DNA from: Pontiella desulfatans
Lineage (GTDB): Bacteria; Verrucomicrobiota; Kiritimatiellia; Kiritimatiellales; Pontiellaceae
NCBI RefSeq assembly: GCF_900890425.1
Contig: NZ_CAAHFG010000002.1
Coordinates: 806,001 to 870,000, forward strand
Length of the DNA stretch: 64,000 bases
Reading direction: 5' to 3'
Shown: positions 11,715-22,633 of the stretch, piece by piece
Layout of the letters: every line of letters begins with the position of its first letter
Position numbering within the stretch: the first letter of the stretch is position 1
Program-made: the position numbers and the translations under genes
Notes under the pieces: generated by a model
What the model was told of the DNA's origin: nothing
Seen by the model: only the letters and a program-made list of their open reading frames with translations
Databases searched by the model: none

Positions 11715-12659
11715 TCATACGGATCGTTTGGCCAGTTTTCTCCCCTGCACCTCGAACGCGATGCGATCGAGGAGGGGGGTGCACAGGTTGCCGAGCAGGA
11801 CGGCGTAGACGATGGCTTCGGTGTAGAAGGTGAAATGGCGAATGAGCGCATTGCTGGCGCCGATGATGATGCCGCAGGCGAGTTGCCCGCTCTTGGACAT
11901 GGGGGTGGAGACGGGGTCGGAGACAATGAAGACGGCGCTGGATAGGGTGGCGGCGGAAAAAAGGTTGATCAGGGGCGAGTGTCCGCACAGGGCGGTGGAT
12001 ACCGTAAACGACAGCAGGAAGGCGGCCGGTGTGCGCCAGGCGGTGATGCCTTTCCAGCAGAGCAGGCCGCCGAGCAGCAAAAGGATCAGCGGGTAGGTTT
12101 CGCCGGGGCTGCCGGGCACGAGCAAAAAGAGCCCCTCCCAAACGCCCTCGATTTTGCCGATCAGCAGTTGGGGCCAGTCGAGGGCGAAGCCTTCGGACCG
12201 GTAGAGCTCCTGCGGCGTGGCGGTGGAAATGACATCGGCGGTGGGCGTGCCCCAGTTGACCACGTGGTTCGGGTAGGCCAGCATCAGGAAGAGGCGCCCA
12301 ACCATGGCAGCGTTGAAGCGGAGCGGTAGGCCGACCATCGGCAGCTTCACGATCCAGACAGCAATGAGGATCGCAAGGAGCATGGGCAAAAACGGCATGC
12401 TGGGTGGAACGCTGGCGGCGAGGAGGGCGGCACTCAGGGCGGCTCCCGTGCAGACGAGCCGGCGTTTGCGTTTGACGATCAGGGTGTAGAGGGTCTCGGC
12501 AAACGCACCGAGGAAGGCGTATCCGATCAGCTTCCAGATGAAGGTTGGATCGTAAAGAATGCTGTAGATGGCGCAGGGCACCATCAGCGCGAGCAGGGCC
12601 CAGGCGGCCATGGGGGCGCTACGCGATCCTACGCGCAGGAAGGGGCTGGCTATCGGCAT
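11715..12659 (-). CDS. rnfD: RnfD/NqrB-like membrane subunit with flavinylation motif
   Basis: A 314-residue polytopic membrane protein of the RnfD/NqrB family, with about eight to ten hydrophobic segments. STATPQELY is a candidate site for covalent FMN attachment to threonine, and SDPVSTPMSKSGQ matches the conserved cytoplasmic-side motif of the family. Rnf and Nqr complexes couple electron transfer to Na+ or H+ transport. The start overlaps the end of rnfC by 10 bp, so the two are coupled. The subunits RnfA, RnfB and RnfE are not found nearby. Confidence 0.88.
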   Translation of the reverse strand: MPIASPFLRVGSRSAPMAAWALLALMVPCAIYSILYDPTFIWKLIGYAFLGAFAETLYTLIVKRKRRLVCTGAALSAALLAASVPPSMPFLPMLLAILIAVWIVKLPMVGLPLRFNAAMVGRLFLMLAYPNHVVNWGTPTADVISTATPQELYRSEGFALDWPQLLIGKIEGVWEGLFLLVPGSPGETYPLILLLLGGLLCWKGITAWRTPAAFLLSFTVSTALCGHSPLINLFSAATLSSAVFIVSDPVSTPMSKSGQLACGIIIGASNALIRHFTFYTEAIVYAVLLGNLCTPLLDRIAFEVQGRKLAKRSV

Positions 12660-13678
12660 TGCTTTCCCTCTTTCAGCAGATGCACCAGCGGGATGTCGGA
12701 CGGGCATGCGGCGGAGCAGACGCCGCAAAGGAAGCACTCGGCCATCTGGGCCTTGAAGGCTGTGGAGGTGGTCTTTCTTGTTCGAATCCGTTCGGTCAGC
12801 GAGAATGGGTGCAGGCCGAGTGGGCAGGCGGTGTTGCATGCTCCGCAACGGATGCAGGGGCGCTCTTCCTTCCAGGCTTTTTCCCGCTGGATGACCAGTA
12901 GGGAGAGCGTGGTTTTCTCAACCGGATCGTTCGGTTCCACCTCGCGTCCCATCATCAGGCCGGAATCAACCAGCAGGTGGAGGGAGGGGTCGTAGGGCAG
13001 GTGGTAGGCGGCAAGAACCTCTTGGACGGTTTGGCCGACGGGAACAATGATGTTCTTGTAGAAGCCGGTCGAGGGCATCGCGAGGGTCAGCGGGCGTTCG
13101 ACAACGGGGATTCCGTCGATGAGGGCGCGGCCGATGGCCCTGAGCGAAACCACGTTCAGCACGAGATAGCCCAACTGGAAGGGCCGTACGTCCGGCGGCG
13201 GCATGTTTCCGGTCAGTTTTTCCAGAATCAGTCGCTCGGCTCCAGCGGGATAGCGCCCGGAAAAAAGGACGATGTCGTATTCGGCGTTGCGTTTCCTGAT
13301 CTCGGCGACCAAGGGATCGTCCCGTTTGACGGCCAGGACGATGCGTTTGGCCCCAATGGCCTTGGCGCAGGCATTGGCTCCGGCGGACACCCACAGGGAA
13401 TCGTGCAGGAGGATGGATTGGTCGATCGTGATGCCCGGTTCGCATTCCACTCCGTTGATGACCAGCGTATGGGCACCCATGCTCGCCCGTACTTTTTTCG
13501 AGGTTTGAAAGCCGCCGCCACCCATGCCAATCAGGCCGATCTCGTCGAGGAACTCCGGAAAGGTTTCGGGATCGATTTCGTCCATACCGGGGAAAATCCG
13601 CTCCGGTCCGGGAAAGGGCCTTTCCAGCGAGTGGGGATCCGCCAGGTTGGCCCAATCGATCTTGATGGGGCGCGGCAT
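12650..13678 (-). CDS. rnfC: RnfC-like iron-sulfur/flavin electron-transfer subunit
   Basis: A 342-residue protein related to RnfC and NuoF. GLIGMGGGGFQTSKK and VINGVECEPGITIDQ are the NADH/FMN-binding region; SLBB-like sequence follows (VGQTVQEVLAAYHLP). Near the C-terminus two cysteine clusters, CIRCGACNTACP and CFLCGVCSAACP, hold two [4Fe-4S] centres. It lacks the long repetitive tail of enterobacterial RnfC. It lies 3 bp after the FMN-binding subunit gene and overlaps rnfD, so the three form an operon. Confidence 0.92.
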   Translation of the reverse strand: MPRPIKIDWANLADPHSLERPFPGPERIFPGMDEIDPETFPEFLDEIGLIGMGGGGFQTSKKVRASMGAHTLVINGVECEPGITIDQSILLHDSLWVSAGANACAKAIGAKRIVLAVKRDDPLVAEIRKRNAEYDIVLFSGRYPAGAERLILEKLTGNMPPPDVRPFQLGYLVLNVVSLRAIGRALIDGIPVVERPLTLAMPSTGFYKNIIVPVGQTVQEVLAAYHLPYDPSLHLLVDSGLMMGREVEPNDPVEKTTLSLLVIQREKAWKEERPCIRCGACNTACPLGLHPFSLTERIRTRKTTSTAFKAQMAECFLCGVCSAACPSDIPLVHLLKEGKQCR

Positions 13679-13681
13679 GGG

Positions 13682-14185
13682 CTATTTTTTCTTCGACCAG
13701 TCCGGCGGGTTTTCCATTTGGAGCGCCACGTGGCGCGCCAGGTAGTTGAGGAACCCCGACATTTTGATGCCGTAGCGTGTGGCGCTCGAGAGGGCATCGA
13801 CGGCCGATTTTTCGGCGTGGGGATCGAATGGAACGCCCTTGAATTGCTGCAGTATGGAGAGGACCTGCTGGCGGTCCTTGGCGTTCTTGATTTTGGAAAT
13901 GTCCGGGAAAACCGCTTCGCGCAGGACATAGCCCGTTGCGGTTTTGTCGACGACCACCATTCCCGTGATGGTCTTGAACGAATCGATTTCGCGGTAGGCA
14001 ATGCCGGTTTTGGGGTTCCCCGCGTTGTCCCATCCGATGTACATCTGTTTAATGGTGCGCGAATAGGGGGCGTCGGAGGTCGCCACCTCCAGGCCGGCCA
14101 TCGCCGCCTTGACCACGCCTTGCACCTCTTCGGCGGCGGCCGAAAAGGCGAACAGAAACCCTATGAATAGCAGTCTGGATAGCAT
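13682..14185 (-). CDS. RnfG-like FMN-binding extracytoplasmic subunit
   Basis: A 167-residue protein with an N-terminal hydrophobic segment (MLSRLLFIGFLFAFSAAA) that is a signal peptide or anchor, followed by an FMN_bind-like domain. DALSSATRYG contains the Ser-x-Ala-Thr type signature in which threonine (about residue 136) receives FMN from an ApbE transferase. The ATG at 14185 has a GGAG ribosome-binding site; a GTG 15 bp upstream is less likely. It is first in the rnfGCD operon and probably passes electrons on the periplasmic side. No ApbE gene is in the window. Confidence 0.8.
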   Translation of the reverse strand: MLSRLLFIGFLFAFSAAAEEVQGVVKAAMAGLEVATSDAPYSRTIKQMYIGWDNAGNPKTGIAYREIDSFKTITGMVVVDKTATGYVLREAVFPDISKIKNAKDRQQVLSILQQFKGVPFDPHAEKSAVDALSSATRYGIKMSGFLNYLARHVALQMENPPDWSKKK

Positions 14186-14247
14186 AATTGAACTCCACAC
14201 AATGAACGGCGCAGGTTACGTTTTTTAGACGCGCCTGCGCAAGGGTG

Positions 14248-14281
14248 AAAAAAACGCTCCGGACATCGGTTGCCCGGAGCG
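14248..14281 (-). terminator. Rho-independent terminator after the porin gene
   Basis: An 8-bp perfect stem (CGCTCCGG with CCGGAGCG, 11-base loop) is followed on the minus strand by seven T. It ends the porin transcript and separates it from the rnfGCD genes, which must have their own promoter or depend on read-through. Confidence 0.9.
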
Positions 14282-14304
14282 GCGCAAACGGGCGTGTTGG
14301 TGGT

Positions 14305-15558
14305 TTAGTTGATTACCCAGCCCATGCCGAGGTTGTATTTGGTGGTGCTGCCGGATGCCGCCGTGTCGCAAAACTGCACATCGCCCTTGAGCACGAGGTT
14401 CCGGGTCAGGAGCCAACTGGCGCCGAGCGTGATTTCCGATCGGTCGTATTTTGCGTCCGCCGCGTCCCCGTCCGCCATGCTGTGCTGGGTGTCGTATTCT
14501 TCATAGCGGACAAAGGGAATGAGCGAGGAATCCTTGAGCTTGCCTGTTTTCCAGGCGGCCGGGAGCACATCTGCACCGGCCTCAAGATACCAGCCGAAGA
14601 TTTGTTCGCCGATTGCTCCATCCGTTGGCTCATAGGCCGCGTTCAAGTTGCTGGAGTCGGAGTTTTCGCCGAGGGCAACGACACCGCGGAGGTGGACGCG
14701 TGAAAGGTTATACTCAAAATCAGCGGAGACCATGGTGAAGGTGTTGTCCGTGGAAACATTGTTGGTGTTGGAGTTCGAGCCGCCTTTGTTCTTGTTGTCG
14801 GTCCCTCCGTAATACCCCGAAAACCCGAGGCGCAAGTCCTGGCTTTCGGACATCAGCGGGAATACGTCGATCCGGCCGGAGAGGGCTCCTTCGTTCAGGC
14901 CGGGGCGTCCTTTCATGCGTCCGCCGCGCACGCCTTCCTTCCCGTTGAAGCCGGATTCATTCAGGCCGGCAGTGGCGTAGATTTCGTAGTTTAGCCAGCT
15001 TAGCGGGGAGCCGAACAGGCCGACTCCATCGAGCATCCAGGTCGATGGAATAATGTATTTTTCAACATTCGGACGTTCAACGCCGTTGAACAACGTTGGT
15101 TCATGGTTCTGGTTCACAATGCCCAGCGGGGCGAGCACACGACCGGCACGGATGTTGACCGAATCGGCAAAAAGGAAATCGACATAGAGCTGTTCGATCA
15201 AGAGATATTCTTCATCGGTGGAGGCGTGTTCGAGTTCGATTTCCGAGCTGAGTTTGATCCAATCGTTAAAATCAAGGCCCATGTACATTACGAGTCGGTG
15301 GATATCGAGCAGGTCGTTGCCGCCTTCGACCCAGTTGGCGTGGATTTCGCCGTAGCCGCCGAAGCGGAGTTTGCTTTCTTCCTGGGTAACGGCGGCAAGA
15401 TCGTTTCGCTCCCCTTTCAGGGCGGCCAGTTCGGCCTGGGTGTTCGCCATCTCGGCTTCGAGGGCCTTGAGACGCTCTTCGTTCTGGGCGAGGGCGGAAC
15501 CCGCAAGGATTGCGACCGTGGCGATAACGCCGATGTGTTTGACTGCCTGATGTTTCAT
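14305..15558 (-). CDS. Outer-membrane porin with N-terminal coiled coil
   Basis: A 417-residue protein with a signal peptide ending at GSALAQ, then a short coiled coil (RLKALEAEMANTQAELAALKGE) and a long beta-rich region with alternating hydrophobic residues and aromatic girdles, ending GMGWVIN. This layout fits phosphate-selective porin O/P-like or related trimeric porins, in which the coiled coil reaches the peptidoglycan. The solute is not predictable from sequence. The ATG at 15558 has an AGGAG ribosome-binding site. It has its own promoter, a long structured leader and its own terminator. Confidence 0.8.
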   Translation of the reverse strand: MKHQAVKHIGVIATVAILAGSALAQNEERLKALEAEMANTQAELAALKGERNDLAAVTQEESKLRFGGYGEIHANWVEGGNDLLDIHRLVMYMGLDFNDWIKLSSEIELEHASTDEEYLLIEQLYVDFLFADSVNIRAGRVLAPLGIVNQNHEPTLFNGVERPNVEKYIIPSTWMLDGVGLFGSPLSWLNYEIYATAGLNESGFNGKEGVRGGRMKGRPGLNEGALSGRIDVFPLMSESQDLRLGFSGYYGGTDNKNKGGSNSNTNNVSTDNTFTMVSADFEYNLSRVHLRGVVALGENSDSSNLNAAYEPTDGAIGEQIFGWYLEAGADVLPAAWKTGKLKDSSLIPFVRYEEYDTQHSMADGDAADAKYDRSEITLGASWLLTRNLVLKGDVQFCDTAASGSTTKYNLGMGWVIN

Positions 15559-15590
15559 TTCTATCTCCTTTGTTGAGCGCCGGGAGGCGT

Positions 15591-15738
15591 ATGCCGGATG
15601 CAAAGGAGGGTGGGCAACTTCGTCAAACGAAGGGGAACGGCCAACGTGGAAAGGGAGATGCTTGATTCCCTGCGAGACCCGTCCCGGTGGTTTGAATCGT
15701 TGGTAAGGTTGCCTAAACCCAATTCCTGCATCCGGCAT
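15591..15738 (-). ncRNA. Candidate structured 5' leader (possible riboswitch) of the porin gene
   Basis: Read on the minus strand, 12-base perfectly complementary ends (15738-15727 with 15602-15591) close a domain. Inside are a second helix (GGGT and GGCAA pairing with TTGCC and ACCC), a third (CCAACG with CGTTGG) and hairpins CTTCGT/ACGAAG and GGGA/TCCC. The 3' strand of the closing helix lies about 20 bases before the AGGAG of the porin. I could not match it to a known riboswitch class by eye. The nested helices support a real RNA; the function is inference. Confidence 0.6.
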
Positions 15739-15843
15739 CCGGTTCATCCACAGAACCCGCATTCCGGCAAAATTTAGTTTAAACAACCTTCAGGATCATC
15801 CTGACAGGACGGTGATTTTCGTTATGGGAACGAAAAGGCCGCT

Positions 15844-15871
15844 AACTTAGGCGCGCCAAAAAAAATGTCAA
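15844..15871 (-). promoter_or_regulatory. Sigma-70-type promoter for the porin
   Basis: On the minus strand a perfect TTGACA (15871-15866) is followed after 16 bases by TAAGTT (15849-15844). Transcription would begin near 15837, giving a leader of about 280 bases that contains the structured element. Confidence 0.6.
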
Positions 15872-18660: not shown

Positions 18661-18691
18661 AACATTAATGGGTCTAATTGAGGAGCAGGTG

Positions 18692-21600
18692 ATGGGTCGG
18701 TGGATTTTGGTTATTGTTACAGTAGCACTCTGCCTTGGAGTGGAAGCGGGCATCTCGATTGTAGATTCCGCAACGGACGGTTATTCCGAAGGCACCGGCT
18801 CGGTTACGGGGGTGTTCAGTTCCGTTTCCGCGCAGGCGGGCGATATGATTGTGGTGGCTTCGGCCACCAACAAGAAGGGGGCGGTTTCTCCCATAACATT
18901 GACGCAGGCCGGCGGAACAGGGTTAACCGGTTCGCAGACCTTGCTAACCAACGACATGGAAACCTATCCGACGAGCTGGGGCTGGTATATGCCGGTCGCG
19001 AGTGGCGGAACCTTCGACTATGAGCTGCGCTCGGCGAGCATCACGGGGGTTGGCGCGGTTTATGTGCTACGTGCCGACAGCGGATCGATTGTCTTGGCTG
19101 ATTCAGCCACGTGGGACGACACCGACAACGCGGACAACGGCACCGCCTATTCGCTGGACTACATCTTCTCGTCAAATATCACGGATGGCGTGCTGATCGA
19201 GGCCGTCAGCGCCCGCACCGATCTCATTGGCGAACCCGCTGCGTACACCGAAGACATCAACGGTTCCGACAAACGGGTGGTTGCCTCATACCCAAGCATC
19301 GCGGGATCCGTCTGGAGTTCGGCCTACACGCTCGCCGGCGGCGACGTGGGGAAGCAGACCTCCGGCGCGCTCGGAATGGTTTTCATGGAAGGGGAGGGCG
19401 CACCGCCCGAACCGCCGCCGGCCGCCGTGTCGCCCTATGCCGGTACCAACGTGCTGTTTATCGCGATCGACGACATGAAACCGCTGCTCGGCTGCTATGG
19501 CGACACCAACGCCATCTCTCCGAACATCGATTCGTTGGCCGATGCCGGCATTGCCTTCATGAACGCGCAGTGCCAGTGGGCGGTGTGCGGCCCCTCGCGC
19601 GCCAGCCTGATGACCGGCCTCTATCCCGAGGAAACCGGCGTGCAGGGCTTCAAGAAAATGCGTGGCCTCTCCGCCGATGGATCGCGCGACAACGCCGTCG
19701 TCCGCCCGAACGTGGTGACCCTGCAGCAATGGTTCCGATACAACAACTACACCACCGCCGCCACCGGAAAAATCAACGATCCGCGTTGCGTCGGTTCGCT
19801 CGACACCGCCACCGGAAAGGTGGCCGAGGATGGATCTGCCGTCGATGACCCGCCGTCGTGGGGCGCTCCGGTCGATCCCGGCAACCTGCCTGCGGACTTT
19901 TTTTCGAACTCCGCCTTCGTGCAGGCCGCCGCCGGCTGGTCTCCGTCCGGCAAGCCCGCCACGGCCTCGACCAACCTGCCGGACTCCGCCTTCGCCGACG
20001 GCATCATTTGCGACGAGGGCATTGCGCTGATGCAGTCGCTCGCGGCGGGCAACAACCAATTCTTCCTCGGCGTCGGTTTCAAGAAACCGCACCTGGGCTT
20101 CTACGCGCCGCAGCACTATTGGGATCTGTACGAACGCGACGGTTTTGAGATCCACCCGTTCCAGGATCATCCCGCCAACGAGGTTTCCTACACCTGGAAC
20201 TATGCCGCCGAGTTGGCAAGCTACGACGATTTTAATCCGGCCATTTCCGGCTACATTCCCGCCACCGACATTCCGGCGGCAAAGCAGCAGGAATTGCTCC
20301 ACGGCTACTATGCCTGCGTCTCGTTCATCGACGCGCAGGTCGGCCGCCTGCTCGACGAACTCGAAACGCTCAACCTGCACACCAACACGATCGTTGTGCT
20401 GTGGGGCGACCACGGCTTCCACCTCGGCGACCACGCCGAATGGGCAAAGCACACCAACCTCGAGCAGGCCGCCCGGGTGCCGCTGATCATCCATAACCCG
20501 TTCGATGGGGTGGCCGGCGCCAAGCCGACGGCCCCCGCCAACTTCACCGATATCTATCCAACCGTCTGCGAGCTGGCCGGCCTGCCTGTGCCGCAGCAAC
20601 CGCTGGCCGAGAACGAGGCGCCCGATGCGACCGCCGCCGGCAGGGCCATCAAGGGGCGTAGCCTGGTGCCGGTCATGAACAATCCCGAAGCCTCCGTGCA
20701 GACCGGCGGGCTGACGCTCTTTAGTCGCAACGGGGCCTTCGGCTATTCCTACCGCACCGCCCGCTATCGCTACATCGAGTGGATCAACAAGACAACCGAC
20801 TCCATCGTTGCGCGCGAACTCTATGACTATGAAACCGATCCACTGGAGACGATCAACCAGGCCGACCAGCCCGGCTACTATTCCCTGGTCTATGATCTTT
20901 CGACGGCCATGCGCGCCGAGCTGGACGCGCTTAAAATGAGCGAAACCGATTGGGCCTGCCCGGAACTCCAAACGCTGGCGCTTCCCCCGCCGACGCCCCA
21001 GACCGCGCAGACCAACCTTGTGCTGGTGGTCGTCGACGACCTCGGCTGGATGGATCTTTCCATCCAGGGCTCGCTGTTCTACGAAACGCCCCGTATCGAC
21101 GAGCTCGCGCAAAACGGCATGCGTTTCACCCAGGGCTATGCCGCGCATCCGCGCTGCCTGCCCTCGCGCTACGGGCTGATGACCGGCCGCTTCCCCGGCG
21201 CAAACGGCGTGCCGGGCGGCTGGCCGGAAAACAACCTGCGCCCGTCGGAAACCACCGTTGCCGAGGCGCTGCGCGATGGCGGCTACGCCACCTGCTTTGC
21301 CGGCAAGTGGCACCTCATCGGTACGCACGGGGCCGACAACCTGCCGCAGAACCAGGGCTTCGATGTCAACTTCAGCGGGGGGGCGGCCGGGTCGCCTCCA
21401 ACCTATTTCTTCCCCTACCGCTTGGCCGGAACGCCCGCGCCGACCGACGAGCTCGACAAGGCCGCGCTCTATTTCGAGCAGGAAGGCGCCGAGGGGGAAT
21501 ATGTGACCGATCGCCTGACCGACGAATCGCTCGATTGGATGACGTGGAACGCGCACAAACCGATGTTCCTGAGCCTGTGGCACTATGGCGTGCATACCCC

Positions 21601-22633
21601 GTTCGAGGCGCCCAGCAACCTGGTTGCCAAATACGAAGCCAAGCTCGCGACGATGGACTACGGCGATCTGCCCGAATACATCAACGCCGGGGTGGGGGAA
21701 CAAAAGATGCGGCAGGACCACCCGGTGTATGCCGCCATGATCGAAAGCGTGGACGCCAACATTGGCCGCCTGATGGACCGGATCGAGGCGATGGGCATTG
21801 CCGGCAACACGGTGATCATCTTCACGTCCGACAACGGGGGACTTTCGAACCGCGGCGGCTACAACACCCGCGAACTGGCGACGGCCAACTGGCCGCTGCG
21901 CACCGGCAAGGGCTGGCTCTATGAAGGCGGCATCCGCGAGGCGTTCATTGTGTCAGGCGCAGGCGTTGCGCCCATGGTCAACTCCAATGCCGTCGTCACG
22001 GGGACCGACATCTTTCCAACCTGCCTGGAGCTGGCGGGGATTCCGCTTCAGCCAACCAACCACCAGGACGGCGTCAGCTTTGCCGCCGCGCTCGAGGGCT
22101 CGGCCTTCGATCGCGGCGAGCCGATCTTTTGGCACTCCCCGCAGGCGCGGCCCTATTCGACGGGCGACTTCAACTCGTCGGCCGTGCGCGACGGCGACTA
22201 CAAGTTGATCTGGTTCTTCGACACGCCCGGCCAGCCGTTCGAACTCTACAACGTCGTGATCGATCCCGGCGAAAACAACGATCTGTCCGGAAGCATGCCG
22301 GCCAAGGCGGCCGAGCTGCTCGGCAAGATCCAGGCGTGGCATGCCGGTGCGCACGAGGGTTCCGGCGTGGTTTTCCGACCGGACGAGGACGACGTTTCCA
22401 GGCCGCCGCAAGCTTGGCTCGACGACCCGACGGTGCCAACGACGCTGAATGCGCCCGAACTTTCGTGGGGCGACTACCTCGGCTTCAACTACAACCTCTA
22501 CAGTAAAACCAACCTGATGGATGCAATCTGGACGACAGAAAACACGGGATTGGCAACCGCGAATCAAACGTTGCCAATGGTTGATAATGAGGCCTTTTAC
22601 AAGGTTGAACTGGTGCTACAACCTGAAAGCTAG
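18692..22633 (+). CDS. Fused double sulfatase (two S1 domains), secreted
   Basis: A 1313-residue protein with a signal peptide (MGRWILVIVTVALCLGVEAG), a beta-rich domain to about residue 245, then two complete type I sulfatase domains. The first (about 255-755) has IAIDDMKPLLGCYGD and formylglycine Cys299 in CGPSR and resembles iduronate-2-sulfatases (probably S1_7). The second (about 775-1240) has VVDDLGWMDLSIQGS and Cys822 in CLPSR (probably S1_16). A short tail (GFNYNLYSKTNLMDAIWTT) looks like a small C-terminal module. Sulfatases hydrolyse sulfate esters after cysteine is converted to formylglycine. The ATG at 18692 was chosen for its GAGGAG site. It is the first enzyme gene after the regulator. 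Confidence 0.93.
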   Translation: MGRWILVIVTVALCLGVEAGISIVDSATDGYSEGTGSVTGVFSSVSAQAGDMIVVASATNKKGAVSPITLTQAGGTGLTGSQTLLTNDMETYPTSWGWYMPVASGGTFDYELRSASITGVGAVYVLRADSGSIVLADSATWDDTDNADNGTAYSLDYIFSSNITDGVLIEAVSARTDLIGEPAAYTEDINGSDKRVVASYPSIAGSVWSSAYTLAGGDVGKQTSGALGMVFMEGEGAPPEPPPAAVSPYAGTNVLFIAIDDMKPLLGCYGDTNAISPNIDSLADAGIAFMNAQCQWAVCGPSRASLMTGLYPEETGVQGFKKMRGLSADGSRDNAVVRPNVVTLQQWFRYNNYTTAATGKINDPRCVGSLDTATGKVAEDGSAVDDPPSWGAPVDPGNLPADFFSNSAFVQAAAGWSPSGKPATASTNLPDSAFADGIICDEGIALMQSLAAGNNQFFLGVGFKKPHLGFYAPQHYWDLYERDGFEIHPFQDHPANEVSYTWNYAAELASYDDFNPAISGYIPATDIPAAKQQELLHGYYACVSFIDAQVGRLLDELETLNLHTNTIVVLWGDHGFHLGDHAEWAKHTNLEQAARVPLIIHNPFDGVAGAKPTAPANFTDIYPTVCELAGLPVPQQPLAENEAPDATAAGRAIKGRSLVPVMNNPEASVQTGGLTLFSRNGAFGYSYRTARYRYIEWINKTTDSIVARELYDYETDPLETINQADQPGYYSLVYDLSTAMRAELDALKMSETDWACPELQTLALPPPTPQTAQTNLVLVVVDDLGWMDLSIQGSLFYETPRIDELAQNGMRFTQGYAAHPRCLPSRYGLMTGRFPGANGVPGGWPENNLRPSETTVAEALRDGGYATCFAGKWHLIGTHGADNLPQNQGFDVNFSGGAAGSPPTYFFPYRLAGTPAPTDELDKAALYFEQEGAEGEYVTDRLTDESLDWMTWNAHKPMFLSLWHYGVHTPFEAPSNLVAKYEAKLATMDYGDLPEYINAGVGEQKMRQDHPVYAAMIESVDANIGRLMDRIEAMGIAGNTVIIFTSDNGGLSNRGGYNTRELATANWPLRTGKGWLYEGGIREAFIVSGAGVAPMVNSNAVVTGTDIFPTCLELAGIPLQPTNHQDGVSFAAALEGSAFDRGEPIFWHSPQARPYSTGDFNSSAVRDGDYKLIWFFDTPGQPFELYNVVIDPGENNDLSGSMPAKAAELLGKIQAWHAGAHEGSGVVFRPDEDDVSRPPQAWLDDPTVPTTLNAPELSWGDYLGFNYNLYSKTNLMDAIWTTENTGLATANQTLPMVDNEAFYKVELVLQPES

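Follow-up and report, generated by a model that had tools for sequence, protein, structure and literature searches.

A putative cis-regulatory RNA element with twin hairpins in leaders of iron-acquisition genes of Pontiella and its linkage to a gene for a small basic protein

The leader of a porin gene of Pontiella desulfatans contains a conserved and covarying RNA element, which also precedes several kinds of iron-acquisition genes in related genomes. With a probability of about one half, this leader is a member of a hitherto undescribed family of cis-regulatory RNAs that would control iron-acquisition genes at the level of translation, with a small protein of approximately 62 amino acids as the putative reader. 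The leader is located in a stretch of 64,000 nt (contig NZ_CAAHFG010000002.1, positions 806,001 to 870,000), which is referred to as the window and to which all coordinates apply.

A conserved RNA element in the porin leader

The element and its helices were assigned as follows:

15707–15809, minus strand: conserved RNA element comprising Pa, P1, P2 and P3 (covariance model R2, conservation by blastn)
15787–15808, minus strand: Pa, first twin hairpin, CCU-G-UCAGG-AUGAU-CCUGA-AGG, with bulged G and pentaloop (alignment of 38 sequences)
15777–15788, minus strand: 5' arm of P1, GGTTGTTTAAAC, the GG of which may instead close Pa (arm-swap test)
15764–15767, minus strand: 5' arm of P2, CCGG, pairing with 15735–15732 (double-sided changes in the model-fitted alignment)
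15741–15757, minus strand: P3, second twin hairpin, GGTTC-U-GUGGA-U-GAACC (covariation)
15732–15735, minus strand: 3' arm of P2, CCGG, within the 5' arm of the 12-bp stem described below (model-fitted alignment, forced fold)
15707–15718, minus strand: 3' arm of P1, GTTTAGGCAACC (arm-swap test, forced fold)

The stretch conserved according to blastn (15800–15705; 78–86% in the best matches within the genus) overlaps the 5' arm of the 12-bp stem and lies mostly upstream of the 148-nt domain at 15591–15738, not within it. This domain had been delimited as a structured RNA in the first-pass annotation; it does fold, but these borders exclude 15809–15739, two thirds of the conserved element on its 5' side. 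The element is the sole match of the covariance model R2 in the window (91.7 bits, E = 3.6e-24; the training set included this element). A genomic repeat or mobile element was rejected, since blastn finds one copy only in the genome.

Orthologs of the porin occur in 19 of the 29 genomes of the family, and their leaders have a promoter, a 5' hairpin and an element of 102–107 nt in common. In alignment A2, generated with MAFFT and without use of structure, 91.5% of the pair cells are standard and 8 pairs are changed on both sides, whereas slid controls are paired to at most 55%; none of 500 shuffles reached the values of A2 in four of five measures. This alignment supports the predicted helices Pa, P1, P2 and P3. 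In the model-fitted alignment (n = 38), which is biased towards the structure of the model, 22 of 25 pairs show double-sided changes (125 cells in comparison to 40.4 after shuffling). Many of the loci are related, and the counts given here and below are thus not independent. The own arms of P1 pair better than swapped arms (p = 5e-5); for P2 the arm-swap test was uninformative, as P2 was not detected by it (p = 0.41). Covariation across orthologous porin leaders, the lack of which would speak against an RNA structure according to the first-pass annotation, was found in about 20 leaders.

The two hairpins Pa and P3 resemble each other in their loops. The lettered pairs of Pa are all standard in 38 sequences, and compensatory changes occur at five of six pairs. 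Its loop consists of 5 nt in 38/38 sequences, mostly GUGGC or GUGGU, and the bulge five pairs below the loop is a G in 31 and an A in 7 of the 38. The loop of P3 comprises 7 nt (NGYGRNN), with G at positions 2 and 4 in 29 of the 31 loops tallied. Loop nucleotides 1 and 7 are often complementary in the relatives (A-U, C-G, G-C, U-A). Read from this tally, their pairing would leave a GYGRN pentaloop, the same as that of Pa; in P3 of the window, the pentaloop would be GUGGA.

The 12-bp stem and access to the Shine-Dalgarno sequence

Four further features lie between the element and the start of the porin gene or overlap the end of the element:

15727–15738, minus strand: 5' arm of the 12-bp stem, alternative partner of the 3' arm of P2 (sequence, fold)
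15591–15602, minus strand: 3' arm of the 12-bp stem, termed pre-SD box (coevolution with the 3' arm of P2)
15601–15608, minus strand: candidate anti-SD CTCCTTTG, perfect 8-bp complement of the SD sequence
15565–15572, minus strand: CAAAGGAG, containing the SD sequence of the porin gene (sequence)

The perfect pairing of twelve bases noticed at first inspection is present on the minus strand (ATGCCGGATGCA, 15738–15727, with TGCATCCGGCAT, 15602–15591), and the gap to the ribosome-binding site, given there as about 20 bases, amounts to 19 nt between the end of the 3' arm and AAAGGAG. The 148-nt domain folds with -59.6 kcal/mol (minus strand), and in the unconstrained fold the arm 15727–15738 has a mean pair probability of 0.955. 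The fold of the plus strand (z = -4.60) was set aside, because the porin gene is encoded on the minus strand. As the interior (15603–15726) alone shows a z-score of -1.46 in comparison to -4.48 for the whole domain, the unusual part of the domain is the long stem; the nested helices and hairpins that had been proposed inside it fold at chance level. A structured, covarying regulatory leader is thus retained from the first description, whereas the stem is not the outer helix of an aptamer but one of two mutually exclusive conformations.

In 16 porin leaders, the 3' arm of P2 pairs with the box, whose end is mostly located 18–28 nt before the SD sequence. The pairing score of the own partners (20.9) exceeds that of swapped partners (17.2; p = 1e-4), and the control with reversed boxes gave p = 0.12. 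The comparison of the 5' arm of P2 with the box, intended as a control, likewise reached significance (p = 1e-4); more than one partner may exist for the box, or its composition may resemble that of P2. In the RNA of the window the 12-bp stem excludes P1–P2, and the two folds amount to -96.8 and -89.6 kcal/mol. If P1 and P3 are enforced in this RNA, an 8-bp helix between anti-SD and SD (CUCCUUUG with CAAAGGAG) forms unforced. Furthermore, the mean accessibility of the SD sequence in the 16 leaders is 0.17 with P1 and P3 forced and 0.44 with the box pairing forced (Wilcoxon p = 0.003), though a forced helix near the SD sequence may free it for geometric reasons alone.

Across the porin leaders as a whole, the complementarity of anti-SD and SD is weak (p = 0.08), and the SD sequence is no better hidden by native pre-SD regions than by shuffled ones (p = 0.17). 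The switch in the porin leaders rests more on some leaders (G000, G008, G026 and G006) than on others. Because the shuffle tests fall short of significance, the switch is considered the likeliest mechanism and not a demonstrated one. In most of the 11 feo leaders, inspected by eye, the 3' arm of P2 abuts or overlaps the SD sequence.

Genes preceded by the element within the genus

Model R1 detects further copies before other genes in the same genomes. With R2, 45 sites were found at E ≤ 3e-4 in 24 of the 29 family genomes. These are 20 porin leaders and 11 leaders of LbtU/OprB-FeoA-FeoB genes, six sites before AraC genes (five of them with flavodoxin), four before divergent DUF3450 genes, three before TonB receptor genes and one before a paralog of the small protein. 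The targets were read from the sequence, and representatives were identified with Pfam and NCBIfam (FeoA, FeoB, LbtU siderophore porin, OprB porin, TonB receptor, DUF3450, and flavodoxin behind an AraC regulator); the porin in G021 is presumed, since the contig ends there. Judged by these annotations, the targets appear to serve mostly iron acquisition. That an RNA leader precedes the porin gene was rightly noticed in the first-pass annotation, but a porin-specific control does not apply, as the element also precedes the other kinds of iron-acquisition genes. A second copy in the genome of the window (G000:C3:113239-113338) is located before an LbtU-like gene and feoAB. The element is internal to the feo operons, where it directly follows the stop codon of the gene of a basic protein of approximately 62 amino acids.

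In 387 genomes of the phylum and 288 of the class, strong matches of R1 and R2 under strict filters are confined to the genus; the scan of the phylum with R1 under these filters missed members such as L186 and L187, which were later found via the small protein. Class-wide matches of R2 outside the genus with E-values of 0.006–0.1 were taken as noise. When 84,980 species genomes were scanned for the pattern, credible matches appeared only in Pontiellaceae/Kiritimatiellales; the matches elsewhere are isolated, occur in scattered phyla and look like chance.

The small protein and its linkage to the element

The small basic protein is encoded in 26 of the 29 family genomes, including all 24 genomes with the element. 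Three genomes (G022, G025 and G028) possess feoB and have neither the small protein nor the element. No family of Pfam or NCBIfam matches the protein. Its AlphaFold model is of mediocre quality (pLDDT 68) and consists of a helix and three strands, and a fold search with this model gave no significant match; weak matches to dsRBD-like folds were not counted as evidence. A divergent paralog (L191/G014:C240; 55% identical amino acids) has the element in its own leader, which suggests a feedback control. The relation of this candidate cognate protein to the element is one of co-occurrence, and since both share an operon, their linkage need not imply binding.

Outside the genus, relatives of the small protein were detected in 20 further genomes among the 387 sampled, at 21 sites. 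R2, although trained on the genus only, matches 12 of these 21 sites with E ≤ 0.02 (families f42, f48, f58 and f60); every match lies on the coding strand of the small gene, at most about 125 nt downstream of it. A descriptor of twin hairpins with a G in the middle of both loops was applied to 21 genes (20 outside the genus and that of G005), and it was found after 13 of them in comparison to 5.4% of the control windows (p = 2e-11). With A, C or T as central base, 1, 0 and 0 of the 21 were found, and the descriptor occurred on the coding strand at 13/21 and on the reverse strand at 1/21. The initial strict descriptor had found 3/21 only and was relaxed after the data had been seen; the search with R2 is therefore the cleaner test. 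Exact matches to the sequence of the first hairpin are confined to the small-protein genes in 8 of 10 such genomes, where they occur once, or twice if two small genes are present.

The genes that follow the element outside the genus mostly encode pseudopilins and not proteins of iron metabolism; feoB lies within the fetched stretch in five loci. In genomes of f42 and f48 (L190 and L197–L205), the small gene and the twin hairpins precede prepilin-type genes. Since the downstream genes vary but the small gene remains next to the RNA, the small protein is ranked above a metal as ligand. Binding of a protein to the leader, which had been named beside a riboswitch when the structure was first noticed, is at least as likely as the latter on account of this linkage.

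Comparison with known RNA classes

No family of Rfam 15 matches the element, up to E = 10 for the stretch in the window and up to E = 5 for 31 related loci, which agrees with the original impression that no known class applies. The main texts of two surveys for the discovery of non-coding RNAs, in 26 and 50 genomes, contain neither feo nor Kiritimatiellota.

Guanidine-II (mini-ykkC) RNAs possess ACGR tetraloops, whereas a GYGRN pentaloop occurs here. The element differs from them further by the bulged G, the extra helices P1 and P2 and the iron genes, and neither ACGR loops nor a match to the Rfam model of guanidine-II were found. For guanidine-II, an excerpt of PMC5486947 describes twin similar stem-loops which dimerise through their loops.

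The NiCo (czcD) and Mn2+ (yybP-ykoY) riboswitches are, like the element, metal-related mRNA leaders, and their Rfam models gave no match at E = 10 in the window stretch and E = 5 in the related loci. Both mostly control genes of export or homeostasis, whereas uptake genes are found here. According to an excerpt of PMC10043782 (reference 193 therein), czcD was reported to respond to iron(II).

The likeness to the iron-responsive elements (IRE) and their binding proteins (IRP) lies in bulged hairpins in mRNAs of iron genes, which an excerpt of PMC8466369 describes together with translational control. IREs carry a CAGUGN loop, the element a GYGRN pentaloop; moreover, the element has twin hairpins and is bacterial, and its candidate partner is the protein of approximately 62 amino acids, which belongs to no known family. 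The combination of a bulged C, five pairs and a CAGUGN hexaloop closed by C-G was not found in the element. Its bulge is a G or an A, and its loops are either pentaloops or 7-nt loops whose ends are often complementary.

In autogenous ribosomal-protein leaders and at CsrA sites, an RNA-binding protein occupies hairpins near the ribosome-binding site. In contrast to these systems, the candidate protein lies outside the families of Pfam and NCBIfam, and GGA is not a conserved element of the loops.

Proposed mechanism and alternative explanations

In the off state of the porin leader, the folded helices P1, P2 and P3 would leave the pre-SD box and the anti-SD free to cover the ribosome-binding site. 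In the on state, the 3' arm of P2 would pair with the box and thereby form the 12-bp stem, and the ribosome-binding site would be released. In the feo operons, the folded P2 might directly block the SD sequence, as its 3' arm ends at or beside it. The small protein would bind the twin hairpins and stabilise one of the states, so that the uptake genes are switched off when iron is plentiful; of all parts of the mechanism, this step and the direction of the response carry the greatest uncertainty. Possibly, though with slightly less confidence than for the leader itself, this is a post-transcriptional regulon of iron acquisition, in which a new family of RNA-binding proteins of approximately 62 amino acids and the twin-hairpin element form an analogue of IRP/IRE that arose independently, lie next to each other in genomes across the phylum and, in several genomes of Pontiella, have extended to two to five transcripts.

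The twin hairpins might instead be the direct binding site of a small ligand, with Fe2+ or another iron signal as the most likely candidate, and the protein would then merely be a product of the same operon. The iron-acquisition targets, the exact loop sizes with the conserved bulged G, the two exclusive folds with a platform linked to the SD sequence and the precedent of guanidine-II, whose stem-loops dimerise via their loops, are all consistent with such a riboswitch. We nevertheless regard it as rather unlikely, though as the leading alternative: a riboswitch needs no partner, but across the phylum the element accompanies the gene of the small protein, and it is the downstream genes that vary; the twin loops would equally suit a dimeric protein or one with two binding sites. 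Binding of another factor, for example an aconitase-type iron-regulatory protein, CsrA or a small RNA, seems improbable. Hairpins with a small loop and, about five pairs beneath it, a 5' bulge do recall iron-responsive elements, and some loops of P3 read CAGUGA, but the closing pairs are unlike those of the IRE hexaloop; GGA occurs in only some P3 loops, so CsrA would not explain the conservation.

A DNA operator for an iron repressor, palindromic by coincidence, is a highly improbable reading of the sequence. Pa does form an imperfect inverted repeat, palindromes of DtxR type were seen by eye in the promoters, and a DtxR-family gene lies upstream of one copy; P1, P2 and P3, however, covary, the element is intra-operonic in the feo operons, right after a stop codon, and outside the genus the hairpins prefer the coding strand (13/21 against 1/21). 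A chance fold of a GC-rich leader is an adequate reading for the hairpins of the domain interior with their z-score of -1.46. For the element, which is conserved and covarying and whose stem coevolves, chance is excluded, and its probability as a general explanation is close to nil.

For the preferred reading, a leader under translational control with the small protein as reader, the RNA class and the small protein, both orphans, would form a testable pair for the iron-linked control of translation in a poorly studied group of bacteria. Searches for additional members can draw on a consensus and a covariance model. Should the protein bind the RNA, the pair would be a bacterial counterpart to the iron-responsive system of animals; should iron bind directly, a riboswitch class would be located before iron-uptake genes.

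The porin operon, its promoter and further observations

The following features were assigned around the porin gene, which is divergent from a GAPDH gene:

15844–15871, minus strand: probable sigma-70 promoter of the porin operon, TTGACA (15871–15866), 16-nt spacer, TAAGTT (15849–15844) (sequence)
15816–15836, minus strand: P0 hairpin TTTTCGTTCCCATAACGAAAA, located at the likely 5' end of the transcript (sequence)
14305–15558, minus strand: Porin_O_P-like porin, 417 amino acids (PF07396, E = 1.4e-5)
13682–14200, minus strand: small exported protein, RnfG-like by eye, no Pfam match (SSATRYG motif and neighbours)
12650–13678, minus strand: RnfC-like protein (TIGR01945, E = 2.9e-62, below the curated cut-off; PF01512)
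11715–12848, minus strand: RnfD-like membrane protein with uncertain coding start (PF03116, E = 1.2e-47)

The promoter motifs TTGAC(A) and TAnnTT occur at the same position in the orthologous porin leaders, and a hairpin of other sequence is seen by eye at the position of P0 in most of them. The porin gene and the RnfG-, RnfC- and RnfD-like genes behind it (11715–15558, minus strand) represent a partial Rnf set; the RnfG-like nature of the second product is inferred from its motif and neighbours. As a guess, this set passes electrons to the periplasm and perhaps reduces ferric iron.

The sequence GGCGCGCCTAAG overlaps the -10 region of the porin promoter and resembles, by eye, a half-site of a DtxR-type operator. 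Palindromes similar to TTTAGATAATATCTAAA are located between -35 and -10 in the promoters of the feo operons (L157–L176, upstream of the small gene), and sequences similar to TTAG-N6-CTAA lie over the -10 region of porin promoters. Both look like DtxR-type iron operators. A pattern search for the palindromic sites TTTAGAT...ATCTAAA and TTWRG...CYWAA found none in the porin promoter, and the DtxR reading of this promoter therefore rests on half-sites seen by eye. In G026, a gene of the DtxR family (Fe_dep_repress) lies upstream of one copy of the element.

In another genome of the family, an in-frame TAA splits the porin ortholog (G027:C2:2613862-2615119; L050 and L057), and the second part was matched separately. 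On the plus strand of the window, positions 18668–22633 encode a single protein of 1321 amino acids with two tandem matches to sulfatase domains.
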